64,000 bases of DNA, taken from assembly GCA_018902385.1 (NCBI GenBank), contig JABSSW010000063.1, positions 124,001 through 188,000 of the forward strand, in the 5' to 3' direction. Origin of the DNA: Physcia stellaris (Eukaryota; Ascomycota; Lecanoromycetes; Caliciales; Physciaceae). The position numbers and the translations under genes are program-made. Positions 9,401 to 64,000 of this stretch are shown here, in pieces. The first letter of the stretch is position 1, and each line of letters opens with the position of its first letter. Below the pieces are notes generated by a model. The model ran no database searches. It saw only the letters and a list, made by a program, of their open reading frames with translations, and had not been told where the DNA came from.

Positions 9401-11672
9401 AAATAATCGTATTTATCTTCGCGTCATCATTCAAATTCAGCACTTTTCGAAGCTTTTTTTTGCACATTTCACATCGAATACAATTAATTGAAAACGAAAA
9501 AATCGTTATTTCGATATCGAATTACAAAATTTCACAAAAATAATTTCATAATACGTTGTGATTGTTGTTCAATTCAATTGCGAAATACGAAAAAACAACG
9601 CGACAAACATATTTCGTTTCATTTTCAAAATCATAAATCATCAAATTCAACATTTTTCGAAATTTTTTTTTGCACAATTCACATCGAATACAATTAATTG
9701 AAAACGAGAAAATCATTATTTCGATATCGAATTACAAAATTTCACAAAAATAATTTTCTAAAACAACGTGATGATTGAAATTGACGTATCGCAAACAAAA
9801 CGAAAACAAATTTTGTTCAATTTCAAAATCATTATTTCAAAGCAATTTTCGAATGCGCAATTGATCAAAAAATCTCATTTTACGCATATTATTATCGATT
9901 TTTTTGTTATATATCATGATTTTCGCGTTTCAATTTTTTAAACGATTTTACGATATCACAATAAACATCGACATGTCTGTTGAAACGATCAATTCATTTC
10001 ATAATTTTCGAATTTTTACATCGAATCAATGAAATTCATTGACAACATTCAACGTAAAAATAACATTTTCAAATGATACGCACGATCGCGATTTGTGAAT
10101 TTCGATTTTTCATGTACAAAAATCAAACGAAAGTGTTTATGATAATGAGTTAAAATGATCGAAATTTTTGACGAACGAACACAATTTTTCAACAAAAAAT
10201 TTTTCGATTTCAAATAATACGAAATTCGAAAACATAATTTTAAATCAAATTGCTATTCGTATTTTTGAAATATTCGATTTCAAAAAAAAAAAAAACAAAT
10301 AAAAATCATACATGTCGTTGCGTGTTTCAAAAAATTTTTGATTTTGATAACGAAAATCAATTTCGACAAAAATTTGATTTTCAATATGTTGTTTTTGTTA
10401 CATTTTCGAAATACGAACATCGTGTTGATGATAATGTTTTTGAAATTCATTGCGAAACAACAATACGAAAAAATCAATAAATTTTCTCGAATTCGATTTT
10501 TCGTTTATGATAAAAATCATAAATTCAAATTGAATCGTGAAAAAATTGTTGTCGAAATGTATATTCATGATACGAAATTTTCAATCGATTGTCAAAATTT
10601 TTGTTGACAATAAACAATGTTTCATCAATTTCGAATACATATTTTCGATCGAATTCAACGAAAACATTTGCAAAAAATCGAAATTTCGAAAACGTTTGAT
10701 AATTGTGATCGTAAATGAATTGCATTTGATTGACGATTGACGAAATTTTCGTTCAAAATTCAACGAATTTCATGTGTTCAAAAATCGATTTTTTTCGAAT
10801 GTGTTATATTTCGACATCTTCGTTATTTTGAATAAAAATACGTTGATCGTCGTAAAAAAAAACGTTGATTTCGAAAATTGTCGAATAATCAAAATTTTTA
10901 TCGATAAATCGAAAATCAATATGCATATTATATTTATCGAAAACAATCAAAAAAATTTCGAAAAATTTCGTCGTTTTTTTTCGATTCATGCGATTGATTT
11001 TTATAATATTTTCAAAACAATTTTTTATTTCGACAACAAATCGAACATTCAAAATTTCGTTTAATTTGCAATCGACGTTTAATTTCTCGAATGAAATTAT
11101 TCTTTCGTCGTCAAACGTTGAATAGCAACGTATCATGCGAACATGATTGATGACGACAAAAAAAAATTGTTGATACGTTCGAAAAATCGAATCAAATGAA
11201 TTTTTTTGAATTTAATTCATCAATTCGATTTTTGATCGTCAACGAAACATATGAATTGAGCGCGAATAATTCAAATATCAAAATCATTTGTAATTGAATG
11301 ATTTTTAAAAACAAACACGTTTTGATTCAAAGAAAAAATCGAAACGTTCGTCAAATTTTTTTTGAATTTTGTTATCTGTTGATTTCTCGATGAGTTTGTG
11401 ACAAAATCGATTTATCGAAAATCAGAAAAAATAAAAAAAATCGAAATTCATTGTTGAAAATTTACATATTCGAACAAAACGATAACGAATATGAATTCGA
11501 TCAAAACAACGTTATTAATTTTCGAATCAAATCAATAAACAAAACGACGAAATTTGTTCGCAATGCGCAACAACGTCAAAAACAAATATCGATATACATC
11601 GATTTAATCAATTTTTTTGCAATAAATTGTGCGAATTAAAACGATACGACGACGAAATTTACGTCGAATATA
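9401..11672. other. Strongly mutated relic next to the gene side
   Basis: I recognise no protein or LTR here. It is the most heavily altered stretch by eye. The only internal structure I can support is a 210-base tandem duplication at its left end. Open frames of up to 110 codons occur on both strands, but they have no family resemblance and contain no Gly or Pro. Confidence 0.6.
9431..9770. repeat. Tandem duplication, period 210 bases
   Basis: The sequence from 9431 (TCAAATTCAGCAC...) recurs from 9641 with an exact 210-base offset and about 120 clearly matching bases. Both copies contain CACATCGAATACAATTAATT. Their differences are mostly transitions: CAGCACT against CAACATT and GAAGCTT against GAAATTT are ApG/ApA and CpT/TpT changes. 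These may be remains of an LTR or leader repeat. Confidence 0.75.
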
Positions 11673-11676
11673 AAAA

Positions 11677-11790
11677 GGAGCGTCTATCCGAACTTGAAAT
11701 CGCTATTTGAACTTGTCAAGTTCTTTATATTCGATATATTCGATCTGCAACATAGAGTTTCAAATGCTCGATTCTGAACGATTCAGCATC
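11677..11790 (+). repeat. Left terminal inverted repeat of the 850 bp element
   Basis: Pairs with 12413-12520 in reverse complement. The match is strongest over the outer 55 bases and continues through TTCGATCTGCAACAT against TTCGATTTGCAACAT. Mismatches are mainly C/T and G/A. Confidence 0.75.
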
Positions 11791-12412
11791 ATATCACGAT
11801 TGTACATGCTATCGAATTGAATCTAACGTGAATAGATCAATTGCATTGATATTGACGTAAAGAAAATTCGATTTTCTATCTAACAACAGAACCTCGTTCA
11901 ATCAAATGAGATTTGCACGATCGCAAAGATTATTTCTTTTCTTTTCGTCTGCTTTTTATTCTTCGCATGTCTTTCATCTTCTAGTCAGTTTTCGCTCGCT
12001 TGTTGATATTTGCATTGATGTTGATTTTTCGTTTGCGTTCGATGATGATTCGCACTGATTTGATTGTGATCGCCGTGAAGTCAGTAAATTTTTCATCGTA
12101 TGACATCGATTGACTGTACAATTGACTTGATGAAGAAAACATAATCGTGTAACTAAACGAAAAAGATTGACTCGAAGAATTATTTCGTCAATCGTTAAAT
12201 CAATTGCTTGAACGTGCTCGAAATCGAAAAACATTCGTTGTGTAAAATTATCGAACGCTCGTTGACGTTTTCAAGACGAACTTGTTTTGCAGCAGTCTTC
12301 GACCGATTCGATGCGAATTTGAAACGATTTTTCGAGCGCATCTTTTGCGAGTTTTGTATGTTCAATAGTGATCATAACAGAAATATGAATCGCAATGCAA
12401 ATGAATGAATGA

Positions 12413-12520
12413 ATAAATAAATAAAATCGAGAATTGAAAAGTGAATGTTGCAAATCGAACGTATCGAAATTAAGAAACTTGACAAATTCAAATAGCGATT
12501 TCAAGTCCGAATAGACGCTT
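12413..12520 (-). repeat. Right terminal inverted repeat of the 850 bp element
   Basis: Reverse complement of 11677-11790. Just inside it, a short AATG/AAAT microsatellite (about 12400-12425) replaces the homology. Confidence 0.7.
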
Positions 12521-13459
12521 TCTATAAAAAAAACAAATTAATCAAATTCGCGATGTGTTGTTCATTTTGCAATTCGAATCATATTTCGAAACATCGATTT
12601 TATTTTGAATTCAAAAAATTCGACAATGTTTTTCATACATATTTTACGAAAAAATTGACTTTATGAAAAAATGAAAAAATTCGAAAAATATATGTTGATT
12701 TTCATATTTTCATGTTCGAATCGATTATATTTTTCGATCGATTTTTGCGCATTATCGTTTAATTCGTCGAATTTTTGACAAATCGAAATGCTTTGTTGCG
12801 ATATTGCAAAAAATGATTCAATAAAAAATTGTATGAAAATGAAATTGTGAATATGTGTATCGATTTTGATAAACAAAAAAGATCAAACAACGAAATTTAT
12901 ATAACATGACGAGTTGATTTTGTCGCGAAAATTCGCAAAAAAACAAAATTGTCGAATGAAAAAAAAATTGAAATTGAAAAATTTATTCGAAAACGTAAAG
13001 AACAACGAGAAATTTGATTGATTAACAAAAATGTGTCGATCGAAAAAAAAAATATCAAAAAACGCAAAAAAAAAATCGTTTTAACGTTTAACGTTTCGTT
13101 GACGATAAAATCAAAATCACAATCGCAAAAAATTTCGCAATCAACAAATTTTTTTTCGTTTTCATTGTTCACGATAAAAAAAAATGAAAATCAACAATCG
13201 ATGTTTCAATCGCAATTTTCGCAATTTGCATCGATTCGATTTTTTTTATTTGTTATAAACGATAATGTAAATAAAAAATTTCGTTCACGAACAAATTCGA
13301 AATAAATTAAAAACAATTTTCATCGAATTTAAAAATCATGTTGTTTTTGTATTGTGATCATGTTTTCGTTCGAAATCGTGAATTTATCATTTTTCGCAAT
13401 TATTCAATTTTTGATATTCGTGAAATCATTCGTTATCGTTCAACGAAAATAATCAAAAA

Positions 13460-14090
13460 ATAAACAATGTTTTTGAAATAAAATTATTTGTCAACAAAAA
13501 TGAATTGTACAAAAACACAAAATCGTTTATTCGATCGAATAATGTTTGTTGTTTTTATACGAAACGATGTGATTTCGACGATATTGTTTGACATCGTATT
13601 GATGTTTGAAAAATAAACATTTTGAATTTTTATCAAATATTAATCATTGTTTTTTTGAATATCGTTTTCGTTGAAAATATTCGATTTCGCACAACGAAAA
13701 TGATTCGATTGTTATCAATTCGTCAAACATACGATTATTTGTCGATACAAATGAATTGTACAAACGCACACAATCGTTCATCAATTCAAATAATGTTTGT
13801 TATTTTTATTCGAAACGATTTGATTGTGTCAATATCGTTGTTTTCATGACGAAATTCGAAAAATTGATTTTTAATTTTGCGTGATTTTGATCGTTGACAT
13901 TTCGAACATCGTCGTCGTCGAAAATATTCGTTTTCGCGTGACATATTCGAGTCAAATGATAAAAAATTCGTTGTAAATAAAATTATTTGTCAATACAAAT
14001 TAATTGTACAAAAATATAAATTTGCATATTTTATCAAATAATGTTTATTATCGTCACTCGAAATTACGAGTGTATGACGATATTGTTTGT
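13460..14090 (+). repeat. Three tandem copies of a unit of about 250 bases
   Basis: The string ATTATTTGTC followed by an ACAAA..AATTGTAC box occurs at 13483, 13734 and 13982, spaced 251 and 248 bases. Each is followed by AATAATGTTTGTT-like sequence and a run ending GATATTGTTTG. No coding sense is apparent. Confidence 0.7.
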
Positions 14091-14254
14091 TTTTGTGATT
14101 TCGATAATTTTATTGTTTTGATGTGAAAATCATTTATCAACATATATTTATCATTAACGTCGTTTGCAACATCATTTCTATTTATTTGAATTTCGATTTT
14201 TTTCTTTTTCGTTTTAGCATCACAATCATGTCGCGCAACGCGAATTTTCTGATT

Positions 14255-14366
14255 ATAGAACACTTTTTATAAAAAAATGTTTTGCGTTTTCTTTTGAAAT
14301 TCTAAATAGAACACTTTCTATAAAAAAATGTCTTTGATTATTCTTATTTGACTTTTTTGTCAAATC
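14255..14366 (+). repeat. 49-base duplication followed by a T-loop hairpin
   Basis: TAGAACACTTT(T/C)TATAAAAAAATG occurs at about 14256 and again about 49 bases later. Just downstream ATTTGAC and GTCAAAT (14346-14365) form a perfect 7-base stem around six T. The function is unknown. Confidence 0.6.
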
Positions 14367-14774: not shown

Positions 14775-14905
14775 TTCGCAATTTGCACATCAATCAACAA
14801 TCACATATGATTTTCATTTATTTAATTTCAATTGTAAAGCAAAATGAATGCAATTCAACGTTGCAACAAAAACAAAAATCGATTCATTATCGCAATAGTT
14901 ATGAG
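14775..14905 (+). repeat. Repeat module shared with element N, copy 1
   Basis: It contains CAATCACATATGATTTTCA, then AATTGTAAAGCAAAATG, then AAATCGATTCATTATCGCAA. The same order recurs at 16209-16335 and, reverse complemented, in element N at about 38800-38895 and 38990-39095. It links this relic to the N family; I place it in the gag-side part of that family. Confidence 0.65.
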
Positions 14906-19400: not shown

Positions 19401-20450
19401 TTGCATTTTTCGTTTAGCAATTTTGTAACATTTTCGCTCAATGATACGTCACTCAAATCTAAACTGTTTGAATCAGTGAATTCGTTTGTCAAAATTTCAC
19501 GAATATCACGTCGAAACAGATTCGTAATTAACACAGAAAACGTTTTTATTCGTTTCGATTTACGTTCGATTTCGTCACAAACATCAAATTATTCGTTTGT
19601 GATAAATTCATTTTTTCGACGTGTTACAAACGTTACGTTTGTTGACGAGATTATTCATCACGAGTTTATTGAATCACAATCAACACGAAATATGATCGAT
19701 TTCATTGTGAAACAGCAACGAATCATTGCAATCATTGTACGAAAAATTATTCAAATTATATTTCGTGAACGTGATGATGACGATGATAACGTTAAATCAT
19801 TTGATTCGTTTGAATTTTTCGAATCATCAAATCAAAATGATGATAATATTGACAACAATATCAAATGAAATTTTGCAAATTTCGATTTTTTCGACTCATA
19901 TTACGATGACAAATCACTGACTAGCGAAATTAGTTCTATTGTTAACATTGATAAAGATACATACTTTTGAAACGTACATCTATTCATTGTACGAGCGAAG
20001 AAAATGATTTTTACACGTGACGAACAACTAATTAAAAACAATTTGTGACTTAATTTAAAAAATATTGCGTTGAAATGATGAACAGATAAATTGTTTGACG
20101 TCGAGCGTCGAATGACTAAAATGATTATGATTGAGCAAAAAAAATTGTTTGAATGAATTAATTTGTTGCACAATAAATTTATATAATCTATTAACGTTGT
20201 CATGAATAATTTAATGCAACAGCGTTACACATTGAAAAATGTCGTTGTACAGCGTGAATTTCGTGAATACGCATAGAAAATCATTCGATTAATCAAAAAT
20301 GCGAACATGATTAGCGTATTCAATCAATTCGATTTCATTTATAACGACATCGACATTGATGTACGAGTTGATACGTTACGTCGTTTCAAAAATAATATTA
20401 TTATCAACGAAATGCTTAGCGATATGAACGAATTCAAACACGATTGATGA
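19401..20450 (+). pseudogene. Decayed gag of element A
   Basis: A 155-codon open stretch (19401-19868) and its continuation to about 20450 in the same frame make a charged, gag-like region with an Asp-rich run (ERDDDDDN). I counted nine stops in the continuation; seven are TGA, one TAA, one TAG. This ratio is what loss of Trp codons would give. Assignment as gag rests on position between the LTR and protease rather than on a recognised domain. Confidence 0.6.
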
Positions 20451-20457
20451 ATTAAAG

Positions 20458-21011
20458 TTGCTAAATTACGCAGCAATATCAATATCAATACTCAAAATAG
20501 TCGCAATCAGTTATCTAAACAAAATGTTCGTTTTCAACAATTCGATCAATATAATAGCAATCGTCAATCGCAATTTCAGCGACAATCATCTCAATTTCAA
20601 TCGTTTCAGCGACAATCTTTTCAATCTCGTTATTCGAATAATGCTTATCAAAATCAATCTTTTCAGTCTCGTCAAAATTATCAGCAAGCAAAATATCAAG
20701 TTTACAAATCAGCTGATTATCAAGTCGACTATTCAAACAATCAAAAAGATCAATACTCAAACGCTCGCACGTTGTTTATTTCATCGAATCGACTACAAAT
20801 TACAATCGATTCAACAAACGTCAACGCGTCAAATTCGAATCAACAGCAATTTATGTCATCACGACAGTTTTTTAAATCGCTCAACAATACTCAACGAGAC
20901 GATTATAGTGATTATGATGAATACGCACAACGTTCGCAAACAGCATATCAAATTAACGTGTTTGACGAAATAAACAAAAATAATTACATAAATGATATCA
21001 GCGATGCTCAT
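20458..21011 (+). pseudogene. Gln/Ser-rich linker of element A
   Basis: In the frame of the neighbouring gag and protease, about 20460-20830 reads as a low-complexity Gln/Ser/Asn/Tyr region with more than 20 intact CAA/CAG codons (for example FQRQSSQFQSFQRQ). Such linkers separate gag and protease in fungal Gypsy elements. Survival of so many Gln codons shows that CpA was not a main mutation target. A TGA at 21012-21014 ends the open stretch. Confidence 0.65.
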
Positions 21012-21155
21012 TGATTATTTGAATATCAAGATATTGATGATAGCGTGTTCTTGTACGAAAATCAATCAGATTTACTCGATGATTACAGTCAGAACGTTGA
21101 AATTGCACAAAATGTCAATTTTTTGACGTTTGTTACAGAAATTTCTACACACAAT

Positions 21156-21221
21156 TGTATTCACTGTAATAGCATTTTCACGTTTAGAAATCAATTATTC
21201 AAACATTTACGCAATGCGTGT
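21156..21221 (+). pseudogene. C2H2-like zinc finger of element A
   Basis: Reads C-x2-C-x12-H-x4-C (CIHC...HLRNAC) and is followed directly by a TGA at 21222. Position just before the protease and spacing match the fingers in the E family in this window. The last ligand is Cys instead of His. Confidence 0.65.
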
Positions 21222-21260
21222 TGATTTTTTGACACGTTTGAGCACGTCAATCACGCAACA

Positions 21261-22025
21261 ATGCACGATCTCATTGTATCGCACGTTGATCACGTTGACG
21301 TTGTATCGATAATAAAATTATCATTTTCGTTTATTTCAAACATTAAAATTTTTCGCAAGAAGATTTACGAATTTTCACACGCTTTTTTTTCAGTCAATCG
21401 TCGCGTTATTCAATTTATTGTACGTTTTGATGAAATTAATTTTAATTACGTTTTTCGTGAATATCAATACGATCAAATTATCGTTAAATTAAATAATAAT
21501 ATCGAAAACATCAAAATATGCATCGATATTGATTGTTTTGTTATTATGATTGATCGCAAATTTTCATACAATTATTATTTAATGTATCGATGCAAAAAGT
21601 TAATTTCATTTATATTTGTGCGAAATGTGAATGACAAAATTGTCAAATCAAACAAATTTATGCTTGTTAACATAACGTTTAATAAAATGCTCAAATCAAA
21701 ACGCGAAACTATTGACGTTATTGAAGTTGAAATGCATTTTATTGACGATTTTGCAATTAACATGCTGTTTGCTAATGACGTTATTTATTCACAAAACATC
21801 AAAATAAATTTCGAGAAACGTCGTTTTATTATAATTAAGTGTGAAAATTTTCGTGTATCAATTGAAATATTTAGTCGAATTATTTCGCACGTTAAACGTA
21901 CGATTCGTTTTCGTCAGACGTACATTTTACAATCTGATAATCTTGCGAAGATATTCGTTACGTATCACGACTTTTTTTTTGACGATAGAGATTTTTGTTC
22001 GAATCTCATTGTCAATACGATTTAG
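21261..22025 (+). pseudogene. Retropepsin region of element A
   Basis: A 254-codon open stretch without a single Gly, Pro or Trp. The catalytic D-T-G reads D-I-D at 21525-21533 inside CIDID..VIMIDRKF, explained by ACT to ATT and GGT to GAT. A second conserved block, HFIDDFAINMLFANDVI, follows. A one-base deletion at about 21985-21995 moves the coding frame, which continues from 21995. Confidence 0.85.
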
Positions 22026-22600
22026 AATACGATAACGACGTGTATGTTCACGTTGTAAATAGCAATTTGTTCAAAATGATTGTTCGCAACGTCATATTTC
22101 AATCTATTACGCTTGCGAAACGTGCACGACTAAACATGATTATCGAATACAATCAAGCTGAATGTTATCTGATCATGTCAAAAAATCGTACAAAACAATC
22201 AATGATTGAATGAACGATCGTTCATGAAAAAAACAATTGATCGTCAATTTCGTTATTTTTGTCGCAACGTATGTTACATTAAATATCGTTTCGCACGCTT
22301 TGCACGAATCGACATTGAACGAATTTATTGCATCATTTACATCGAGCGCGCAATTCGTTGTATTTATCGTGTCACAAATCGATTCGAATCTGAAGCACGT
22401 TTTATTCAATGACGTTATCGTGTATGAAGCAAAAGTGTTCGAATTAATTAATTTAATGAACAGTTATCAAGACATATTTCGTGATTTTGATTTTATCGTA
22501 AATATATCTGAAAAGAAATGAATGTCGATTAATTTCAAGTCAGAAACAATATTTAAATTCAACAAAGTGTATTTTCTAAAAGTCAAAAATCGCAATTTTA

Positions 22601-23265
22601 TTGACGTTATTTTCGACAAATTACATCAGCAAAACAAATTGCACTGAACGATTCAATTTATTTCGTTCAATTATTCAGTTTTCGTTGTTTGACGTGACAC
22701 TTTCACAAAAAAAAAAACGTGTAATGATAAATATAAGAAATTTAAACGACATCATCGAAAACGACAATTATTCGTTCTCATTGCAATCTGATATCATAAC
22801 TGAAATTGTCGATTCGTTTTACATTTTTATCATTGATGTCGTGAATTGATTTCATCAATTCAACGTACAACGCAAAAATCGTCACAAGTTCATCATTGTG
22901 ACGCATCGTGATCAAGAAAATTCAATGTAATTTTTATAAATTACAAAAACTCATTTTTTTACGTGCAACGACAAACGAACAAGCTATTATGTTCGTACAA
23001 ACAATTCGCTAAAACGTACGTGAATGACATTATAGTTCATTTCAAGATTTTACAAAAACATTTGAAACATTTACGCACGTTTTTTCAAATGTTTCGCACG
23101 AAACGCATTAATTTAATTGTCACGAAATCGTTTTTAACGTATTTTTTTGTTACTTTGTTAAATCAACGAATTGATAATTTAAACATGTTTATTATTGCTG
23201 AAAAAATAATCGTCATTATTTTTTATGTTTTTCTTTCAGTTTGCGTGATTTCGAAATTTTCATGA
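22601..23265 (+). pseudogene. Reverse transcriptase region of element A
   Basis: Blocks of the Ty3/Gypsy reverse transcriptase are readable in short frames: RGLND-type (IRNLNDIIENDNY), YVQR-type entry and the active site YVDD as YVND at 23017-23028. The D-to-N change is GAT to AAT after a G, so GpG to GpA. Between 22850 and 22960 stops and frameshifts break the reading. Confidence 0.87.
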
Positions 23266-23275
23266 AATTTACAAA

Positions 23276-24109
23276 TTGATTACGTTCATCAATATCTCGT
23301 TACGCTCAACGTACAATCGTTACAAAAACGTAAAATCACGTTCACGAAAAACGTTACTGTCAGTGAATTTGCACGAAAAAACAAACAATCAAAACGCAGT
23401 TGTACGATTTTATTTTCGAAAAACGTATCGTTTTTCGAAATTTGCAAATCGCATTCGTTTCATCAACGTTCTTGATTCAATTCGACAAAAACGTCGACTT
23501 TACATTGATTTGAATGTTTTCAAACAATAAAATTTTGCAACAATAGTATATCACGTGCTAAATGATTCATTTAACGATGTCACGTATTCACGCATAATCA
23601 TTCAATCTATCATGTTTCTTAGTCGTTGTTTAAACGACGTCGAAAAGAATTACTGATCAACAGAACTGAAAATAATTGACATCGTGTGAATAATTCGTAA
23701 AATTAAACACATGATCGAATCAATTGAAATATTTTCGATTATTATTTACATTGATCATTCTGTCGTTGTATTTATTAATCGACAAATAATTTTCATTATT
23801 TTCAATAATGATAAACTAAATTTGCGACTTGTGCGAATTTCGCAATATTTATTCGATTTTAATTTGTTTGTTAAACACAAAGCTGACAAAACGAACGTAA
23901 TGTCAAATGTTTTATTCAAACTACAAGTTGACGTGATTATTATTGACAAAATCGACGTATTCGAGTCATTGTACGAACATATTTTGAAATTCACGCAAAC
24001 AAATTTGATTTTGAAAACATTTTTGTATTTTCATCATGTGACTTTAGTTGAAATGTCGAATGATTTCAAAATTCGATTCAAACAAACATATCAGAATGAC
24101 GAACATTGA
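23276..24109 (+). pseudogene. RNase H region and connection of element A
   Basis: Frames 23276-23530 and 23711-24109 cover the region after the RT; the second contains YIDHSVVVFINRQ and KLNLRLVRISQYL, typical of Gypsy RNase H. The 3' part (24110-24306) is a low-complexity linker of ACTACGAACG-like repeats, probably once Thr/Pro/Ala-rich. Confidence 0.8.
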
Positions 24110-24307
24110 TTCAAAATTTTCGCTATTGTACGATTTGTTGTCGTAATTACATTTGCGCACGAAATTACGTCAACTACGAACGAAATTATCGTTTCGCACG
24201 AAACTGCTTTTACGTCAATTACGATTACGAACGAAATTACATTTATTAGCGCAACTGTATTTATTATTGAAATTACATTTGCATTTGTAATCGCATTTGT
24301 TAACATT

Positions 24308-25200
24308 TTGTTGAAAATTTACGAACTTTTTGATTCTCGTGAAATACGTTTTCGATACAGAAATGATTTATTGTATTACATTTTTGATTTCGATTCGAAA
24401 CGTTTGTGCATATTCGCAATCATGAAAATTGAAATATTTCGACAAATTCACGATTTTACACATCACGACGATTTCATGCGCACGTACGATAGATTACGCA
24501 ATTCTATTTACGTACATTCAATGATTAAACATTTTAAAATTTACATAATTTATTGTTCAAAATGTCAAATTAATCAAATCAAACGTCATTTTGCTTACGA
24601 CGAATTCACATTTATAAATTTTTTGCAATATTTTTTCATACAATAATCATGAATTTTATTGTGAAATTATCATTTAGTCGCGATATGAACGTATTGCTTA
24701 CGATTACGTACAAATTTTCGAAAAAAATTCTGTTAATTTCGAATTTCGATACGTGATTTGCAACTGATTGAACTAATGTAATCATTGTAACGTTTATGAA
24801 ACACGATTGAAATATTTCACACGCTATTGTATCAAATAAAGACAATAAATTCATATCGAATTTTTGACAAACGATATTCAATAAATTTAAAACAATTATA
24901 TTCACGTTCACAATTTATTATTCGCAAACAAATAATCAATCGAAACGAATCAATCAATTTATCGAAATTCTTTTGCGTTTTCACATCATTGCACATTTCG
25001 ACGACGAGTGAATCGACGTGTTGTCGTTCATACAAATCGAAAACAACAACGTTGTTCACGTCATTATCGAATACGTTTCGAATGAATTTGTTTATGAAGT
25101 TCAAAATCAATGGTACATTGAGCATGTTAACAGATTTATCATTTGAAAATTATAGTCAATTGCGTCAAGTCAAACGAAAAAACGTCGAAATTTTATGACA
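24308..25200 (+). pseudogene. Integrase of element A
   Basis: The N-terminal zinc-binding domain is intact in pattern: H-x3-H (residues 48 and 52 of the 24308 frame) and C-x2-C (83 and 86) in IHDFTHH...YCSKCQINQ. The catalytic core from about 24650 is broken by stops and frame changes. Confidence 0.85.
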
Positions 25201-25720
25201 TTCGTTAACGCTTTGAATAAAACTCGTTACGATGCAATGCACAAAACGTTAAAATTCAAAATTGACGACAAAATGTATTTACGTTTACATCATGATTACA
25301 TTATATTCGACTTATTTAATCACAAGTTGTCGAAACAACGCGTAAGATTCTTTTCGATTATTGAAAAAATCGACAATTTAGCGTTTCGATTACAGCTATT
25401 TTTTGTCATGAAAATACATTCTGTTGTATCAATTGCACAGTTAGAATCAATTATATCGAATTTCGATTTTTACGATAAAACGATCGATAGAAATTCGTCA
25501 TCAATTTACGAAAAACAGTTTATTGCACTAATCGAACAAGTTTCATTGTACGAAATCGAACGTTTATTGAATCGACGTATTATTTTTACAAATCGCATCA
25601 ATTATTTAATCAAATGAAAAAATACGATTCGAAACACAACGTTTGATATTCTTTGCACGTTCTCGACACGTTTAAAAATTTTGTCGATGTTTACGATTTG
25701 CAACATTTTGTTGCTCAAAT
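25195..25720 (+). pseudogene. Integrase C-terminus and chromodomain of element A
   Basis: The frame 25195-25617 holds the GPY-like integrase end (KLSKQRVRFFSIIEKI, VVSIAQLE) and the chromodomain start (YEIERLLNRRI). It stops at TGA 25615-25617, where the chromodomain motif WKGY has its first Trp. After a one-base deletion a second TGA (25644-25646) sits where the second conserved Trp belongs. Confidence 0.87.
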
Positions 25721-25894
25721 TACTGAAAAAAACGCGAAAAACATAATAGAAATCGTTTTAGAAATAAATTTCGAAAAGCAAAACGTGAATAGATGATTGA
25801 TGTGTGATATATAAATCATAATTCAAAACATGATTATATGTATAAATTAAATGTGTCAATGAAAACATTGAGTTTTTTTTTGTTGTTGTGCATT

Positions 25895-26036
25895 TGTTAT
25901 GACATTGACATAATTAATTAAATGATTAAATGATTGTTTCGAAATCATAATGTCTTGACACGTGTAATATTTAATCAACAGTTTTTTTAATTAATCAATT
26001 CATTTTTTTTACATTACAAACATTTGTATCATAATA
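25895..26036 (+). repeat. 3' LTR of element A
   Basis: 142 bases, TGTTATGA...TCATAATA, followed by the target duplication ATTGT (26037-26041). Confidence 0.92.
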
Positions 26037-41847: not shown

Positions 41848-41852
41848 AAAAT

Positions 41853-44073
41853 AAATATCTTGTTTAAACGAAAACGAAAATGAATTTGAAAAATCAACAA
41901 AATGATTATTAAAACGTAAAAATTGCGAATATTGAAATCGCGAATCGAACGTGTTTCGATTTTTTTTGAATTTCGTCTTGTTGCGTTTGTTGAAATCGAT
42001 ATTGTTGATTTGCGTATAAACGTTTTTGCATATTTTGTGTCAATTGTTGTCGATTTGAATAATCTGATTGATACGAACGTTGTTGTTGTTAAAAAACGTA
42101 AACGTTATTTTGTTTGTCAAATTGATACGAAGTTGAATATTGCGTCTGTCGTAATTGCGAAAAAATTCATTGAAATTTTCGTAATCATTACGTTCATTGA
42201 TGAAAAAGAAAATATTATACGAATCGAATGAAATTGAAACTTGAAAACGATAAATAAATTGAAAACGACGATCGTTTTCGAATGAATGATAAAAACGATA
42301 TTTGTTTTCAATGTTTCATCATATTTTTTTTTTTTATAAGTTGTTGTAAAAACTCGTTCATTGTAATTTTTTTGTCGATTTAATTAAATTTCGTCGAAAT
42401 TTCAATTTCAACTCATTGTAAATCAAATAAAGTTGTGAATAAATTGACATCATAATCGATTTAACATTTTTGATTATTATTTTAACGAAATCGAATGATT
42501 TTTTATGTTTGCGAACATTTTTCATAATGTATTTTTTTTTCGTGATCATCGTCAACGTCGTGAACGACGATTTTTTATAACGTTTTAACAACAAACGTTT
42601 TCATTTTTTTACGTTTTTTTTTAATTTGATCAATTTTTTTTGATCGTCATTGACGATTTCAATATATTATCGTAATGCGTGATCACGCATGCAATTATAA
42701 AAATTTGTTCGAATCATATCAACATTTTTGAACAATGTCATATTTTTAATTTTTTCAATATAGAAATGAACATTTCGAAAATATGTATTTTTGTTCGAAT
42801 GTTCGATCGAATTGTCGATAATAACGTTTTTTTTTTCGTATCACGAATCGAAAAATTTTGTTTTTTGAACATTTCATTTGACGTCATCGTCATTGTCAAA
42901 AAATTCGATTGAATTTGATGATTGACAAAATTTTGAAATTTTGTTTGAATATTGTTTCGAACATTCGTAATCAATGTTTGAAAAATTTGTCATTGTTGTT
43001 GCGTGAATTTCGTATTTTGTCAATTGTTATTTTCGTTTGTTATGTTTGAATTGAATGCGAAAATAAATTCGATATTTTTTGTGTTTCGAAAAATGATTTC
43101 AACGAAATTATGATGTTGTTTCGTCGTTGAAAAAACGACGTCGACGAAAATGATTTGAAATTTACGACGTAAATTTTTCGAAAAATGAATGTAAAAAATA
43201 TCAAAAAAAATATTTGCAATCGTCGATTTTAAATCAAAAATAAATGACGTAACACGATCATTAATTCAATCGAAAAAGAATTGATTATTTCGATAAACTT
43301 TTGTGACAATCATAAAAACTTTAAGATTTTTGCGAAAACGAATTTTGTCGACAATTCATTTTGTTGAATAAACAATGTTTGTCGAGATTGAATGATTAAT
43401 AATTGACAACGATGTTGATTTAAAACAATTAATTACGATATTGTTCACAGTAATTTTTGTCGATGTATTGACAAAAAAATTCAATTAATTGTATCGATGT
43501 AATCGAATAATTCAAACGCAATGCGAATGATTTGTGATGTAAAAACAATCAAAATGACTTAAATGAAAATAATGTGTCGTATTGAAATTTGAAATAAAAT
43601 GATGATAAACAAAACAAAAAAACGAATTGAAATTTTCAAAACTTGTTGAACAAATTATTTGTTGATGAAAAAACAAATAAAATCGTTAAATTGAATTGTT
43701 CAAATCAAACAGAAATTCGATGATAAATTGATTTTCAAATGTGTCGTCATTGAGCGATGACAATGCGAATTTTCACGAAAAATCGAAATATTTTGAATAT
43801 TTGAATGAAAAATCAATCGTCTTTGTTGAAAATTGTAAAATATTGAAAAAATTTGATTGAAATTTTAATTTTCAATTGAATGAAATAAATTGATTGATTT
43901 CGATCGACACGTCAAATCGAAAAAGCAACGAAATTTTCGATTGCGACAACGACGTCAATGATGAATAATTGACATTTTAAAATCGTGTGTTATTTCGAAA
44001 ACTGATACGTCAAAAACAATTGATGATGTCGATTTGTTTACGTACAAATTATCGTTTGAATGATGTTATCAAT
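41853..44073 (-). pseudogene. Gag-side remnant of element B
   Basis: This is the part of B between its 5' LTR and the N insertion. No conserved domain can be read. Frames 42594-42358 and 42974-42738 on the minus strand are short and lack Gly, Pro and Trp. Assignment rests on position. Confidence 0.45.
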
Positions 44074-53301: not shown

Positions 53302-53819
53302 ACAATCATTCGATAATTTTAAAAAATCGTGAATGAACAAACATGAAATTATTTTGAATATGATTTACGATAAATTGATTTTCAAATCGTTCAAATGTAA
53401 TCATCATGACAATATATTTATCAAAACAATGTAAATTCGACGTTTGAAAACTTCTGATTCAAATCGTCGATAAAACGTATTTAATTGACGTCGCGATGTT
53501 TTTTTATCGAAAACAAATAACGCGAAATATATTGTTGCAATAAAATTTCGATATACGATTTTATTTCGTTCGCAATTTAATTTTTTAACGTTTTATGTAC
53601 AAAACGAATCAAACGTATTCGATTCAAAATGTTTCGATTGTTTTATTTATTCGAAAATCGATCAAAATGACGAATTGTTCGTCGTTGAATCAAATTATTC
53701 AAAAATTGATATCACAACGATTACGAAAACGACATTCGTCAAAAAAAAAATTGAAAAAACAACGCAACAAACGTTGAAAAATCAAAAAATAACAATTCGA
53801 AATTTTTTCATTTTCGAAA

Positions 53820-54740
53820 TTGAATTCAAACGATTCGATGAATATCGCGATAATTAATGCGATTTTTTTTTTGTTTATTCGTCGATTTCAAAAATCGAAA
53901 ACAAAAATGCAATGTTTTTTCATTACGATCAATCAAATCGATTTCGCATTCAAAACATTGCGAACAAATTTTGAATCGTTGAAAATTGTCGTTGATCAAA
54001 AAAATTTTGAAACACGAACAAATCAAATCGATTTTGAACGTATAATGAAAAAAATATCGAAATATTTCAAACATTTGTCAAAAATATTCGATTTTCAAAA
54101 AATCATTGAATTGTTGTCGTATCGAATTTACGATCACAAAATCGAATTTTTAAACGATAACAATACATTGTTTCGAAATCGAATATATTTTTTGTTCGAA
54201 TTCAAATTTCAAAAATTCAAAAAATATTTGAAAAATAATTTTCAAAAAAATTTTATCGTATTCAATCAAACAATATATGTTTCGTTCGTTTTATTTGCAA
54301 TCAAATCAAATAATCAATTACGTTTGTGTGTGAATTATTGACGATTTAATCACATCACGAAACGCAATCGATATTTTATTTTTTTGATCGAAAAAATTTT
54401 AATTAAAATGCAAAATTGCAAATATTTGATCAAATTGAATATTATATCGATTTTCAACAAATTTCGAATGAATGAAAAAAATGAAAAATTTATTACATTC
54501 GTTATTTTCATAAAATCGTACAAATATCGAATATTATTTTTCGAATTGATCAACGAATTCGCGAATTGACAACATTACATGAACGATTTGTTGTTCAATT
54601 TTTTGAACGATTTTTGTCAAATTTATTTAAATGATATTTTCATTTACAACAAATTCAAAAAAAAACACATCGTTCACGTTCGTAAAATGTTAAAAAAATT
54701 CAAAAAATCGATTACAAATGAATAAAAAAATGCGAATTTT
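53820..54740 (+). pseudogene. Reverse transcriptase of element D
   Basis: The frame 53820-54341 contains SYRIYDHKIEFLNDN, IYVSFVLFAIKSNNQLRLCVNY, a very well-preserved Gypsy RT entry. 54384-54569 follows with IKLNIISIFNKFRMNE and ITFVIF.. to FFELINEFAN, ending at a TGA where the family has Trp (x-W-Q-H-Y). After it the active site YLDD reads YLND at 54624-54635. Confidence 0.88.
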
Positions 54741-56050
54741 TCAAAAAAAAATGACATTTTTGAACGTCATATTATCGATAAATGATTTTCGCATGAATTC
54801 GAAAAAATAAAAATCATTGTCAATTAAAAACGTTTTACAAATTTGAAAAAATGCAAATTTTCGTGAATTTCGTCAATTTTTACAAACGATTCATTCGTGA
54901 TTTTTCGAAAAAATTCGAATTTTTATTCGAATGATCAAGAAATTCGTGAATTTCGAATGAATTGTTGAAATCGAAAAAATTTTCAATTTTTTCAAAAAAA
55001 ACGATGATCGAAAATTTTCATATTACGACATTACGATCGAATCAAACAAATCATTTTGAAAATCGATTTTTTTGATTACGTCAATGCGAAAATATTATTT
55101 CAATACGACGACGAAAAATTTTGCATTTCGTTGTTTTTTATAATCGCAACATGATTTCAATCGAATACAATTACGAAATTTATAACAAAAAATTGTTGAT
55201 CATTATTCGTTGTTTAAAACATTGACGTTTTGAATTTGAAGCGTTATTGAAAAATCGATCAAAATTTTTATCGATTACAAAAATTTGAAAATTTTTATGA
55301 CGTCAAAAAAATTAATTTTTCGTCAAATTCGTTGAACAAAATTTTTTCGAAATTTAATATTGTCATTCAATTTCAATTCGAAATTCAAAACGTTAAAACA
55401 AATTTTGATTCGTATATCGAAAAAATTCGACGATTCAAAAAACGATATTGACGAACGACATCAATATCGAAAAACAAATATTGTTTATTTCGAAACGATT
55501 CGAAATTCACGCGATAAAAATTGACGAATTTATTTATGAACGAATTTTGTTGATCAACAAAATTGACGATAATTGCACGATTTATCGTGAAATCATCGAA
55601 CAAAATTTATTTCAATGAATAAAATGATTTACGAAATTGCATTGAAAAAAACGACGTTTTATATCGAAAAATCGATTTTGAATGTTCGTCGATGTTTTTT
55701 TATTCGTTGATTTTTTTCAAAAAAATTCATGAATTTTTGTTTCGAAACATTCAAATTTTAATCGCATGAAAAATTTTATACGTCGCGATTATTATTGATT
55801 CAACATGCGCAAAACGATTCGTCGATACGTACGTAATTGTTATAAATATCAACGCACGAAAATTTTCAAAAATCAAAAACGATTTATTTATTTTTTTGAT
55901 CATATTTTTGCAACGTTAAATCGACATATCAATGAATTTTATCATCGAATTGTTCGACGTTCACGATCATAATGTCATATGCACGATAATTGACAAATTT
56001 AACAAAAAACGTCATTACGTGTTTTGTATCGTCGACGACGAAAATATCAA
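54741..56050 (+). pseudogene. RNase H and integrase core of element D (broken)
   Basis: No long frame survives. Short plus-strand stretches such as the one around 54.85-54.95 kb (FVNFYKRFIRDFSKKFEF-like) and the integrase-like run at 55.7-56.05 kb show that the order continues. Exact limits cannot be given. Confidence 0.6.
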
Positions 56051-56121
56051 TATTGAAATCACGATCAAAATATTTCATCAATTACGTATTTCGTACACAT
56101 GAATTATTTTTTCGATAACGT

Positions 56122-56714
56122 TTGATCGAAATTTTCAATTCATATCGTTCGTTTGACAAACATTTTGCAAAATTTTCGACATCAAATGTAAATTTTTCAT
56201 CGTTTTTCATTCAAAAATCGATGAACAAATCGAAAAAATCAATCAAAATATCGAAAAACAATTGCGACAATATTGCAATTACATGCAAAACGATTGAAAC
56301 GTTTGATTATTTATGATCGAATTTGCAAACAACAACGCGATATTTGCAACAACAAAATTATTATCATTTTTCATCAATAAAAATTTTCATTTTCGTATAA
56401 ATTTTTCATCAAATTTTATTTCGTATGTTACAACGAAAAAACGATTTTTGATCGTCAAAACAAAAAATATCATCGACACGATGCAAAATATTTTCAATTA
56501 CGTACGAAATCATGCAAAAATGATTCAAAAACGTATAACAATTCAAATCAACAAACATCGAAAAATCGTAAAATACGTCGAAAAAAATTTCGTTTTTTTC
56601 GATCGACGAAATATCAAAACGATCAAATCGTTTGACAAATTCGATGACAAAAAATTAAATTTTTACAAAATATTACAACGTATGAAACAATTCATATCGA
56701 TTCAAATTGTTTGA
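56122..56714 (+). pseudogene. Integrase C-terminal half of element D
   Basis: The frame 56313-56714 has MIEFANNNAIFATTKLLSFF, NIIDTMQNIFNYVRNHAK, QINKHRKIVKYVEKNFVFFDRR and KLNFYKILQRMK, the standard end of fungal Gypsy integrases. The frame 56122-56316 just before it overlaps through a frameshift. Confidence 0.83.
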
Positions 56715-57472
56715 AATCATGCATATTTACGATGTGTTTCATTGTTGATTTTTTGCGCAAAAATTTTCGTGATTTATTCGAAAATCAAATCAATGAATTT
56801 TTTGATTTTGTTATAATCAACGAAAATTTCGAATGAAAAATGAACGATATTTTGAAATTTCGATATCATTACAATCGTTTTCAATATCGTGTCAATTGAT
56901 CGAATTGATCGCATGATCGAACATGATATTATGTCGACAACGAAAAATTTGATAATGTTCGCGACGTGATAAACGATTTTCATCGAAATTCTTATTTCAC
57001 GATTGCAAATTCAAAATCGTTCAAAACGTTGATTTCAATATTTCAAAACGTCGTCGACGAATCAAATTTTTCAACGAATCGTCGTCGTTTTCGAAAAAAT
57101 CGTTATGTTTGACATTAATCGAAATTACATTCGATTAAAATTTGAAAATTTCGAATTCAATTCATTCATTTCGATTTCATTTTCGCAACGTTTTCAACAA
57201 TTTTTAGTTTTCGTTATCGTTTCGATGTTATTTACAATCAAAATTTACGTCGCATGAAAAACTGAATCGTGTCAAAAACATTTTCAAAAATTGTTGTCAA
57301 ATTTTATCGAACTTTGAAGCAATAACGAAACATTTGAAAATGAAAAATGATAATCGTGAAATTTTTGAATTTTGCAAACACTCATATCAATCGACAAAAT
57401 TTTCAACAAAATTTTTCAATTTCGAAATAACAACGAATCGTCGAGACAACGCTCGCGAAAAAAAAAAAATAA

Positions 57473-59821: not shown

Positions 59822-59848
59822 GTCGTTTTCGTCGTTTTCGTCGTTTTC
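59822..59848 (+). repeat. Nine-base minisatellite
   Basis: Three perfect copies of GTCGTTTTC within the E-family fragment. Confidence 0.85.
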
Positions 59849-59997
59849 ATTCAAATTTTTGAACGTTTTTACGATTGTTAAAAATTATGAACTCAACGCG
59901 TCTACGAACAAATTATCGAGATCACGTATTCGATCGATCGACAAAAAAAAAATCAATTGATCGTTTCGAAACGAAACTGAAAAAAAACGAAAAATAA

Positions 59998-60200
59998 TGT
60001 AACGAGCGTCATCGATTTCAACATTTGAAATCAACATTTGATCAATCATTAAAATTAACATTTTTATTTTATCACATCGAATGACAAAGTCGAATTTCGT
60101 TTATAATTAAATTTTCTACATATGTTTTGTCAGATTTTTGTATTTGTCTTTTCATTTCGATATTCTCGTGTAGTTATGTAGTAATATTATATTTCTGCAT
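59998..60200 (+). repeat. E-family LTR (3' LTR of the fragment)
   Basis: It aligns with the reverse complement of the E LTRs through TTAACATTTTTATTTTATCACATCGAATGACA and ACATATGTTTTGTCA boxes, shown here in parts, up to about 60200, where the match is lost; the exact end is uncertain. Confidence 0.75.
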
Positions 60201-60205
60201 AGCGA

Positions 60206-62043
60206 AATTCGTCTCAAATGATTTTCGATCGATTGAATCGAAATGTTCGAAAAAACGTCGAAATATGAAATATGTAAACGAGAAAAAATGTTGAAATTGT
60301 CGATTCGTTGATCGATCGAAATTCAACGTACAATAAAACGTTAATGAATGCGATTTGTAAACGAAAAAAAAATGTTGAAATTGTTGATTCGTCAAACGAT
60401 CGCAACGAAACGTTCGATAAAACGTAAAAAAATTTCGAAAAAACGTAAAAAATATTGAGCAATGTTTTTGCACGATTTGTAATGAAAAAATCGTTAAATT
60501 TATATTTTAATTCGCGATTTGTTCGTATCAAATTCAATTGTAACAAAAAATTTGTCGTAAAAAATGTTGCATTGTCGTATTTTTTTTTAAAATTTGAATT
60601 AAATTTTTGATTGAAACATTTGAATTTTTTCGTTTTTTTGAATTTTCAAAAATATTTAATTTGTTCATTATTGCGTTTTTTATCATTGAACGTATTCGTT
60701 CGACATTCGAATATTGTTTTGCGACATTGTTAAAAATATTCAAAATTTTTGCAAATGCGTGCGATGACATCATTTGTTTCACGTTGTCGAAATTTCAAAA
60801 TTGTTTTAATTTTTTTTGTTCGAAATTTTCGTTTTTTTTCAAAACGAAAAATCATTTTTTTTATTAACGTTCAACGATCGTTTTGCAATTTCGAACGATT
60901 TATTAATAATTTTTTTATCAATTGATAAAAATTCGTCATAAAACGTTTTATTTCATGACACATAATCATGACAAAATTTCGAATATTTCGTATCAAATTT
61001 TCAACATTTATGTCGCGTATTTTGTGTTTCAAAAATATTTCAATTCGTCGATATGATTGAAAACATTGAATTGAATCATCAAGCGTTGATTCGTTCATTT
61101 CAAAAAAATATTGATACGACGTTCGATTGTCATTACGAATGTTGATTTTACGAATGTTTTTACGAATGTCATTGTTAATTTGAAATTCATTAATGAAACA
61201 TAAACAAATCAAAATTTTGTAAATTTACGCAATTTTTGAAAATTGAATTATGAAATATCAAATGAAAATTAAAATTTTGCAAATTTAAACAATTTTTTTT
61301 TGCAAATTCAAACAAAATTCAAAAATTAATTTGTGAAATATGAAATGAAAAAATCAAAATTTTGCAAATTTGAACGATTTTTGAAAATTAATTTGTGAAA
61401 TATCAAATGAAATGAAAAATGTATTCACAATTCAAAAAATCAAATTCGAAAAAACGAAACAAACATTGAAATCATTAAAAAAAAATGAATTTGTATGTCG
61501 ATTATTAATTCAAATCAAATAAATTTTCACGATCGTTGTTTTTCATTTTTTGACACGCAATTGTTAATGTTTATTATTTTTATTTCATTTGATATTTTAC
61601 ACACATTTTATTGAAAAAAATATTTGTTTTGATTTTAAACAAAAACAAATTTTCAAAAATTACGAATTGAAATATTTTATTTTGTTTTCAAACAATTCAA
61701 TTTAAATGCAATTTTTTTTGTAAATTACACATTTATTTGTTGAATTTTGATCGTATTTTGAAAAATTCAATCGACGTAATGATATTTTCAAATTATAACG
61801 ATTTTTAAAATCGAATTTGTGTATTAACGCGATATTTTTTTTTTGCAATAAATTTTTTTAATTGATATGTATTACGAAACAGATTTTTATTATTATTTTT
61901 GACGTTTCAAACGTGACGAAATCATTGCGCAAAATTCATAATTTCAATTAAAATGCAATTTTTTTTTCGTGATTCGAACGATAACATTTATATCGTTTGT
62001 AAATTTCGACAAATTCTTTTCTTGCGTAACGAAACGATGTTAT
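60206..62043. other. Relic with short tandem repeats
   Basis: No recognisable gene. Two imperfect copies of a unit of about 75 bases (AAACGA..AAAATGTTGAAATTGT..) lie at about 60275-60435, and a tandem array lies at 61205-61409. Minus-strand frames 60546-60214 and 61212-60871 are unrecognised. Confidence 0.55.
61205..61409 (+). repeat. Tandem array, three units of about 60-85 bases
   Basis: Units share AAAATTTTG(T/C)AAATTT and end in GAAATAT(C/G)(A)AATG. AT-rich and non-coding. Confidence 0.7.
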
Positions 62044-62223
62044 TGTGACGAACGTATTATGTGTTGATTTCTGATAAATGTTTGAATTTTTATTTTATCA
62101 CATCGAGATTCGAATTCGAATTTCGTTATGATTTAATCATCTACATATGTTTTGTTAGATTTTCATAATTAGTTTTGCAATCTAGACTTCTGTTGTTATT
62201 TATATCATTGTGACATTTTACAT
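62044..62223 (+). repeat. 5' LTR of the E-family element at the window end
   Basis: 180 bases, matching the E LTR boxes TTTATCACATCGA and ACATATGTTTTGT. It is 15-28 bases shorter than the LTRs of E. Confidence 0.75.
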
Positions 62224-62879
62224 TATTCTAGATTTTTACAAACTCACTCGAGATATGTCTTCGTACATGTCTCAATCATAATTTGTAGCAAACAATTGAA
62301 TCGAGCATTGCATTTCGCAACAGAATTTCGTCGATCAAATTTTAGTTTTTAAATCATCAAATTAACGAATCTCGATTTTTTTTTTCTACACGTTTACTCA
62401 AATCAATACATCTATTTATTTTCTTTCAGAAAGTCGATTTCGAAATCTCAAATTAGATTTCAAAATCGTCACGATAATTCAAAAAGCACTCGAATCATCT
62501 ATCTGTTTCGAGAATTTTTCAAAATCATATCTATTTATCTAGCAAATCAGCACATGTTCTCTGTCTAAAAATGATAGTTTCAATAACATTTCGAGTCACA
62601 ATCTACGAGTCAAAACACTCAATCAGTATTCAATATTTATTTCATCATTTCTGTTTGAAGAATTTTTCGAAATTCTTAGTTATTTTTTAGCAAATCGTTC
62701 GTTTTCTTTCGCAATGAATAATTATGATTCATCGATCAAACGCGAAAGTCGATTACGTTTTTTCGACAACGTCAAAGATTGATTTTCGAAAACTTTTTCA
62801 TTCGAAAAGCTAATCGTTGCTGAATTTTTTTCAGAATGAGTATGAATTGATTGAATGCTATGAATGTCATATCACTTGA

Positions 62880-63400
62880 CATAAGATTATCTTGATAGAA
62901 AAGAAATCTGTTCAACATTTTTTGCGAATTGCTCAAGAAATCGAACAAAATTTGAACGAGTCAAACGTAAAGCTGAACAGATCAAGAAAACTCAAAAAAA
63001 AAAAAGCTCAATCGATTGAGCAGAAAATTCAGAAACAGATACAACGTGAAATCAAATTGACTGAATGTCAAATCGAATGAAAAACGAAAAACGCGCTGAA
63101 ATGATCGAACAAGAAATTCAAAAAAAAAATTGTCAAATCAACATCAACATCTCGTGATATCGATATCTTCGATTCAACGTTTGTAAACGATATTTTGAAG
63201 TTCGATTTATATAGCAAAATAATAAAATTTTTGCAAAATTTTCAACAAATTCAATATCAATATTTGAAATCAAACGTGCTCGATTTATTGTTCAAATATT
63301 TTCGAAATTTTGCATTCGCATGATTCAAAAATTAATCAAATTTCATCATCATACAGAATTTTGATCGAGATTTAACATGTGCATTTTCTATTATCTCATT
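62880..63400 (+). pseudogene. Gag-like coiled-coil region of the E-family element
   Basis: The frame 62892-63080 is a Lys/Gln/Glu helix (FLRIAQEIEQNLNES, IEQKIQKQIQREIKL) with strong coiled-coil character. It continues in frame past a TGA with a further Lys-rich stretch and IDIFDSTFV. I regard it as capsid-side gag by position and composition; I cannot name a domain. Confidence 0.6.
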
Positions 63401-63461
63401 CGAATTTACAGCGAAAACATTTGTTTCGTTCGTTTCACAATTTTCGATTCAATATCACTCG

Positions 63462-63614
63462 TGCGTTGAATGTTTCGTTCAATTTTCGTCAATGAATCGA
63501 CTTTTAAAACATATCAAACAAGAAATTGCTTGTTGCAACATCAAAGTCATTTGCAAACATTGCGAAAAAGATTTCAATTTCAAGAATAAATTTCACGAAC
63601 ACATACGCGAACAT
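63462..63614 (+). pseudogene. Two adjacent zinc-finger motifs of the E-family element
   Basis: First CVECFVQFSSMNRLLKHI (63462-63536; C-x2-C, then His and a Cys-Cys pair), then CKHC...HEHIREH (63552-63614; C-x2-C-x12-H-x3-H). Both are in the same frame, so this copy shows the original arrangement best. Confidence 0.75.
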
Positions 63615-64000
63615 CATGTTCAGAAGTTTGTCGTTTCGCTCGTCACATCAAAGAATTCGAATTTTCGACTTTTTACATCAGAATTTACGTACAAAATCGA
63701 GAAAAAGTCAGCAGTCATTTGCTCGTTTGTTTCGTTTTTTTCGTTTGTTTCGTTTATTTTTTTTGCAACATCTACATCGATATCTGAATCAATATCATCA
63801 AAATGTTCGAATTTTTCTATTGCGACACTCAATATCACATCGAAATCGATGAAAAAACTATCAATCAATTCATTTACATTTACGATTTCATTTTTTCGAA
63901 CATCTGTACGAAAACATCAAGAATTTCACATTCAAAAATTTTATTTCATCATCGATGATTTGATTCGCATGTTTCATGAAAAGTTTAAATTATTTGATTT
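63615..64000 (+). pseudogene. Post-finger module of the E-family element, cut by the window end
   Basis: In the frame of the fingers: FTSEFTYKIEKKSAVICSF, SKCSNFSIATLNITSKSMKK and KFYFIIDDLIRMFHEKFK. The same blocks in the same order occur in element E at 48.9-48.1 kb and 47.1-46.5 kb. Confidence 0.7.

Follow-up and report, generated by a model that had tools for sequence, protein, structure and literature searches.

Repeat mutation in the lichen fungus Physcia stellaris strikes cytosines before pyrimidines and spares CpA and CpG, the reverse of the usual RIP context

The window analysed here, a stretch of 64,000 bases (positions 124001-188000 of contig C63) from the assembly of the lichen fungus Physcia stellaris (Physciaceae, Caliciales, Lecanoromycetes; 43,974,083 bases, 147 contigs), consists from position 9399 up to its end of an AT-rich, transposon-derived block in which CpC and GpG are nearly gone, CpT and ApG are depleted about five-fold, and CpA and CpG are retained. 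The CpA preference typical of repeat-induced point mutation (RIP) is absent from this block. As comparisons of intact and mutated element copies leave hardly any room for doubt, the underlying change is C-to-T with the target order CpC > CpT >> CpA >= CpG and with at most a weak effect of the 5' neighbour. We consider it probable that, taken as a whole, these observations reflect a RIP-like, repeat-directed system of exactly this context which operates through an enzyme of the RID family; the context is observed directly, whereas the enzyme is a candidate. An earlier note, made from the letters of the window alone, had described RIP-like mutation with a reversed context, and this reading was confirmed in a stronger form than the one reported; the whole block contains 12 CpC/GpG sites.

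Positions 9401-64000, with a GC content of 26.2%, hold 7 CC and 5 GG next to 580 CT, 579 AG, 3184 CG, 3388 CA and 3397 TG. The odds ratios, which the earlier note had left to be computed, are lowest for GG (0.005) and CC (0.007) and highest for CG (3.39), with 0.22 for CT, 1.28 for CA and 0.43 for TA, and they are all close to 1 in positions 1-9400 (CC 0.92, CT 1.06, CA 1.08, CG 0.93); CpG density is alike on either side of position 9400 (56 and 58 per kb). The switch between the two states is abrupt, with CC and GG together numbering 38 in 9199-9398 and 0 in 9399-9598. The claimed lack of any CC or GG between 9401 and 11676 was borne out by the count, the first one being a GG at 11677, where a younger DNA element starts. 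Chance as the cause of the CpC/GpG loss is out of the question. The five rows quoted in the earlier note are indeed free of CC, CT, AG and GG, but these rows had been chosen, and its wording that CpT is “erased” does not hold for the block as a whole, in which CpT is depleted about five-fold and CpC was hit before CpT. Judged from GC figures, some 26-29% of the P. stellaris genome may be in the same mutated state.

The direction of change follows from relatives that escaped it. The heavily mutated retroelement copy at 53475-56747 (plus strand, taken from an RNase H match in its relative L035) has two intact relatives, L035 (C5:1164547-1167834) and L036 (C12:58337-61625), which are GC-normal, with CpY/CpR ratios (Y, pyrimidine; R, purine) near 1 and with frames that stay open for 1,024 and 1,151 codons. 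The mutated copy and its intact relatives share 70% identity, and nearly all differences are CpY transitions: starting from L035, 419 of 429 CC (97.7%) and 415 of 423 CT (98.1%) were changed, against 59 of 418 CA (14%) and 15 of 434 CG (3.5%), with 435 C-to-T and 473 G-to-A changes facing 19 reverse transitions and 27 transversions. Because L035 keeps the CpC and CpT that 53475-56747 has lost, this is mutation and not inherited composition. Likewise, the original composition of the elements is ruled out as a cause by the GC-normal family members L035, L036, L037 and L048, whose CpY/CpR ratios are 0.88-1.07 and which contain 351-451 CC plus GG in 3.3 kb.

Further copies show the process at earlier stages. 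With L035 as the reference, L056 was changed at 396/432 CC, 321/428 CT, 31/421 CA and 15/438 CG, and the lightly mutated L066 at 312/428 CC, 184/422 CT, 13/422 CA and 10/438 CG; CpG change is thus close to the background of 2-5% given by L035 and L036. The remaining comparisons, from three other families, were L048 versus L067 (CC 269/351, CT 148/383, CA 24/468, CG 22/362), L037 versus L068 (402/416, 327/437, 20/418 and 7/380) and L039 versus L063 (262/326, 247/400, 86/423 and 51/376). All six pairs whose reference is unmutated or nearly so showed the same context order, and across the pair and family comparisons 3-25% of CpA was changed versus 73-100% of CpC. Two alignments of the same pairs differ by at most 3 sites (e.g. 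CC 419/429 versus 419/430).

Two element families agree with the pairs. For family 1 (30 of 48 matches taken as loci, of which 24 were tried and 20 kept after dropping four under 1,000 bases), the least-mutated copy L013 was compared with 19 others, giving 306/337 CC, 4013/5376 CT, 1121/9586 CA and 713/8468 CG, that is, 12% of CA versus 75% of CT, and in every one of the 19 copies CpT exceeded both CpA and CpG. In family 2 (25 loci tried, 20 kept, the five without a single match of 2,500 bases being left out), L047 against 19 others yielded totals of 303/323 CC, 3131/4198 CT, 384/7572 CA and 272/8921 CG (CA 5% versus CT 75%). Family alignments and intact-versus-mutated pairs therefore uphold the proposal that C before a pyrimidine is the substituted base, and neither of the contrary outcomes that had been anticipated for it appeared: CpA-to-TpA was far from being as common as CpT-to-TpT (CA 5-14% versus CT 75-98%), and the intact members L035, L036, L037 and L048 have normal CpT and CpC.

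Since CpY loss was similar after all 5' bases (97-99% after each of them in 53475-56747 versus L035), it is the 3' base that decides; a 5' G was the one preceding base that lowered CpY change somewhat in L066 (0.84 and 0.44, versus 0.92-0.94 and 0.54-0.59). The rare CpA changes of 53475-56747 fell more often on CAC and CAT (41/172) than on CAA and CAG (18/246); of this excess, only a raised CAC was seen in L056, and it was absent in family 1. An exhaustive in silico conversion of CpY to TpY in positions 1-9400 came close to the observed block (simulated/observed: CG 3.79/3.39, TA 0.32/0.43, TC 1.43/1.42, GC 24%/26%), the main gap being CpT, 0 versus 0.22, as mutation of the real block is incomplete. 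Rules based on CpA, or on CpA plus CpT, produced patterns unlike the block. With a product index of 0.44, a substrate index of 1.37 and a composite of -0.93, measured against the usual cut-offs of 0.89 and 1.03 (PMC3897900), the block would be scored as unmutated by standard RIP indices.

Furthermore, mutation can strike one strand independently of the other, over hundreds of bases at a time. In positions 175-1101 of L066 (927 bases), 7 of 117 CpY were changed on one strand, while the other had lost 76/83 CC, 26/50 CT, 5/80 CA and 1/65 CG; additional one-strand tracts occupy 2480-2774 and 1248-1359, and the three tracts together give 102/112 CpC versus 41/74 CpT. On the patchy strand of L066, neighbouring sites shared their state in 286 of 415 cases versus 212 +- 10 in shuffles, an excess absent on the other strand and in the other pairs tested. 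An 11-base periodicity of spared CpT was not seen in L066, where 7-18 pairs per distance are too few to judge.

In most of the listed places, matches to the repeat at the left edge of the block begin at about 9326, whereas mutation starts at 9399, some 72 bases inside the repeat; therefore, the process ends inside the repeat and the unique flank is spared. The interval 9326-9398 is the initial part of this repeat, unmutated, with its CC and GG retained and with matches elsewhere in the genome, as if the repeat ends were spared here. About 55 bases of this interval are also present, with 87-98% identity, at many sites elsewhere. At the compositional edges of L009, L013, L026 and L028, CC plus GG falls from 4-21 to 0-1 per 100 bases. 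Both retroelements and a DNA transposon are mutated, and C:G-to-T:A transitions are concentrated in repeats and spare genes, as checked for the genes in the flank of the window and at the loci of the three methyltransferases.

The DNA transposon in question (11677-12523, about 847 bases, bounded by 95-nt terminal inverted repeats and, apparently, by a 9-base target duplication) is nested in the older repeat and less mutated, and from the size of its target duplication we take it to be Mutator-like. It splits the repeat into a mutated left part (9399-11677), of which most of the length is found in six other places of the genome (86-96% identity) and the first few hundred bases in further ones, and a right part (12523-13400), where 13400 is the end of the query and the repeat may extend beyond it. 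CpY dinucleotides are a minority in the transposon (73 versus 220), and yet 177 of 250 transition columns against four partial copies were CpY (columns with a readable neighbour; 3 without one were omitted). Copies elsewhere were used for this count, as small indels spoiled the comparison of one inverted-repeat arm with the other.

How could such a pattern arise? In the model that we regard as probable, duplicated DNA would be recognised in the sexual phase, as in Neurospora RIP and as the targets and edges suggest, and a RID-family cytosine-methyltransferase-like protein would convert cytosines in several rounds, acting on a single strand at a time. Several points weigh against this model or soften its support. 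First, the unmutated pair L035 and L036 shares 95.7% identity over 3.3 kb, with little CpY bias in its differences (transitions at 62/1741 CpY versus 43/1720 CpR, p 0.07), and its existence counts against strict action on every duplication; with such a pair in an ascospore-derived culture, the system is incomplete or leaky, slow, or no longer active. Second, family copies share ancestry and mutations, so that their counts are not independent events. Finally, the data are weakest for the DNA transposon, CpG columns being common too in two of its four copies (21 in L071, 16 in L072), and the border of L012 is patchy, not sharp.

Of the RID and DIM-2 homologues to which the earlier note had drawn attention, the genome holds a canonical RID, an additional RID-like gene and a putative DIM-2-like gene; a PF00145 profile search gave four matches in three genes (L003/L004, L001 and L002). 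The RID-like gene on contig C5 is 100% identical over 300 residues to the Physcia stellaris protein G7Y79_00005g016670. The first of them, L003/L004 (P0001), has the motifs PPCQ and EQT and falls inside the Lecanoromycete RID clade; by sequence, L003 is the canonical RID. L001 (C6:791557-792528) has PPCQ and EET and contains two TGA in what, judged by eye, appear to be introns. The third gene, L002, has SPCQ and ENV motifs, is the outgroup to the RID rows in the tree, and is presumably DIM-2-like. L003 and L001 both show the features of the RID/Masc1 class, namely a C5-methyltransferase domain, PCQ in motif IV and, in motif VI, one of the known variants EQT and EET (PMC6709928).

In the tree, L001 forms a separate clade (100/100) with Heterodermia (Physciaceae) and ENA sample rows, and Heterodermia, of the same family as Physcia, is the one named close relative among the best 120 of 2,472 matches. 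This clade adjoins the Eurotiomycete-type DmtA, with fork support of 91/92 in a larger tree including other rows and 100/99 in a reduced one. Placing L001 in one clade with the canonical Lecanoromycete RID was rejected (approximately unbiased test, p 0.017), whereas joining it with a third Lecanoromycete lineage (B) was not (p 0.067). The putative catalyst could be the canonical RID (L003), if its specificity has changed, or else L001, the second RID-like protein, and the earlier note's idea of an enzyme other than the canonical RID-dependent one may or may not hold. Tentatively, and with the odds rather against it, we suggest that a second RID-like enzyme of the L001 type might have taken over repeat mutagenesis in this lineage of lichen fungi, as a CpY-specific (CpC > CpT), strand-processive mutator invisible to standard indices and hence missed in surveys. 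According to a review, in vitro catalysis of RID-type proteins has not been detected (PMC13297926).

Other sources of the mutation have to be weighed against a RID-family system. The mutator might be the DIM-2-like methyltransferase L002, whose methyltransferase motifs are intact, as in the DIM-2-dependent RIP pathway of Neurospora. However, the DIM-2 pathway is known for its spread into unique flanks, and here neither the flank nor the initial 72 bases of the repeat are mutated, and the fall of CC plus GG at the edges of L009, L013, L026 and L028 is sharp. A review does give DIM-2 methylation a CpT preference (PMC13297926), yet CpC was hit before CpT in Physcia, and we hold this alternative to be unlikely. 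Still more doubtful is a nearly context-free mutator combined with protection or repair of CpA and CpG, e.g. by a glycosylase fixing T:G mismatches before purines. The data show the net outcome only, and CpG transitions in 53475-56747 (3.5%) are indeed near the 2.3-3.1% background of the unmutated pair L035 and L036, but such a scheme needs an exactly complementary repair specificity, in every copy and on both strands.

AID/APOBEC- or DddA-like cytidine deaminases, editing DNA or retroelement complementary DNA (cDNA), could leave footprints resembling the strand-restricted tracts described above. Known deaminases of these kinds choose their target by the 5' neighbour, though, and the near-total loss of CpY after every 5' base speaks against any such choice, which makes this explanation quite improbable; editing of cDNA alone is excluded, as both strands and a DNA transposon were hit. 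Searches with PF08210 and PF14428 gave no match, and as the controls were equally silent, this permits no inference on the absence of deaminases. We see practically no chance for ordinary CpA-type RIP viewed late, after saturation, although CpT changes do accompany those of CpA in Botrytis, Sclerotinia and Magnaporthe (PMC4352252): a CpA-first process cannot, according to the simulation, leave a CpA odds ratio of 1.28 with TpA at 0.43, and the family alignments refute it. Ultraviolet (UV) or dipyrimidine damage, about equally implausible, would also hit C after a pyrimidine, yet only 22/130 TCA and 2/142 TCG were changed. An assembly or base-calling artefact, or original element composition, for which nothing speaks beyond the strangeness of the pattern, can be dismissed with near certainty in view of the GC-normal family members in the same assembly, the use of Nanopore plus Illumina reads (PMC7513301), and 23 proteins from other (ENA) data sets nearly free of proline and glycine.

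These proteins illustrate the coding consequences of CpY mutation. New stops are almost all TGA, arising from TGG; among 150 RNase H matches, scored out of 575 candidates, we tallied about 270 TGA, 12 TAA and 1 TAG, where related copies share stops and the count by hand (151 entries for 150 rows) gives the TGA number an error of at most 2. In the block, 61 stretches stay open for at least 100 codons and encode 8,602 residues with 1 proline, 1 glycine and no tryptophan. The 23 ENA relatives (P0232-P0254, 39-82% identical) of the open reading frame at 21261-22022 contain 5 prolines and 12 glycines in 6,486 residues, 20 of 23 being without proline and 20 of 23 without glycine (P0240 holds 10 of the 12 glycines), and they look like translations of CpY-mutated transposons. 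Absence of tryptophan was rejected as a database signature, as it applies to 13 of the 23. The query itself favours such matches, which therefore speak for the presence, not the prevalence, of the CpY-mutated state in other data sets.

Regarding the remaining features of the window, the unmutated unique flank (1-9325, GC 49%, up to the start of repeat matches at about 9326) carries genes on the minus strand for an EBP2 family protein (2258-2962, PF05890), a protein disulfide isomerase (4696-5842, PF00085 and PF07749) and an MKT1-like protein (6454-9002, PF12246 and PF12247). Within the mutated block (9399-64000), a Gypsy-like copy of family 1 lies at 20400-26000 on the plus strand, recognised by a below-cut-off SH3_Tf2-1 match and inspection by eye; the 19 other copies aligned with it are 80-89% identical. 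A stretch of 153 bases at 41848-42000 recurs at 95-97% identity in 22 other matches listed while the surrounding DNA is heavily mutated, and is perhaps the end of a young repeat. An Rfam scan of the window gave nothing at gathering scores.

To our best assessment, this is a real, strong and, as far as could be found, unreported inversion of the RIP context. The genome paper describes 46.57 Mb with 43.3% GC, obtained by Nanopore plus Illumina from a culture grown from ascospores, and a text search of its accessible text did not find the word RIP (PMC7513301); likewise, no report of CpC-first or CpY-specific RIP was found in the literature searched, subscription papers such as Clutterbuck 2011 lying outside this scope. 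From such a near-complete inversion it follows that RIP can change its target rule in evolution, and Physcia offers a natural comparison for locating the part of RID-type proteins that recognises the 3' base. It also means that index-based tools would score CpY-mutated genomes as RIP-free. Conversely, a mutator whose new stops are almost exclusively TGA and which removes proline and glycine is readable in protein databases, where proline- and glycine-poor composition could flag other affected fungi.

Compared with known systems, Physcia shares with the RID-dependent RIP of Neurospora crassa the C-to-T change on both strands of transposon-derived repeats, the sharp compartments, a RID homologue and a presumed DIM-2-like one, and the spared flanking genes, but the Neurospora order is CpA > CpT > CpG > CpC (PMC5496416), as opposed to CpC > CpT >> CpA >= CpG. 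In Trichoderma reesei, where RIP was shown in crosses, CpA and CpG are first and CpC is last (PMC5496416), and a 2025 survey of 1,239 fungi found that RIP-like defences share the CpA preference (PMC12543289). Changes of CpT are by themselves no novelty: the RIPCAL authors noted that CpT-to-TpT outnumbers CpA changes in Neurospora Tad1 (PMC2621366), and in another survey CpT-to-TpT was the dominant alignment class in RIP-capable controls, with indices still positive (PMC7882544). In Physcia, where CpA stays intact and CpC is the first to be lost, this alignment-count bias does not apply. Botrytis cinerea, Sclerotinia sclerotiorum and Magnaporthe oryzae likewise combine common CpT-to-TpT changes with RID/Masc1-class enzymes, but there CpT is accompanied by CpA, and the sections consulted describe no CpC signature (PMC4352252), whereas Physcia spares CpA and has CpC as its best target. 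Among lichen-forming ascomycetes, Endocarpon pusillum also has mutated repeats, with classical indices of 1.47 and 0.70 (PMC3897900) in contrast to 0.44 and 1.37 in Physcia, and the repeats of Cladonia rangiformis have a GC peak of about 16% (PMC12542154), which would lie below the floor of 24-26% allowed by a CpY rule. Finally, Microbotryum and the rusts resemble Physcia in the context-biased C-to-T mutation of their transposons, but their target is CpG (PMC4352252), the very context that is best preserved in Physcia.

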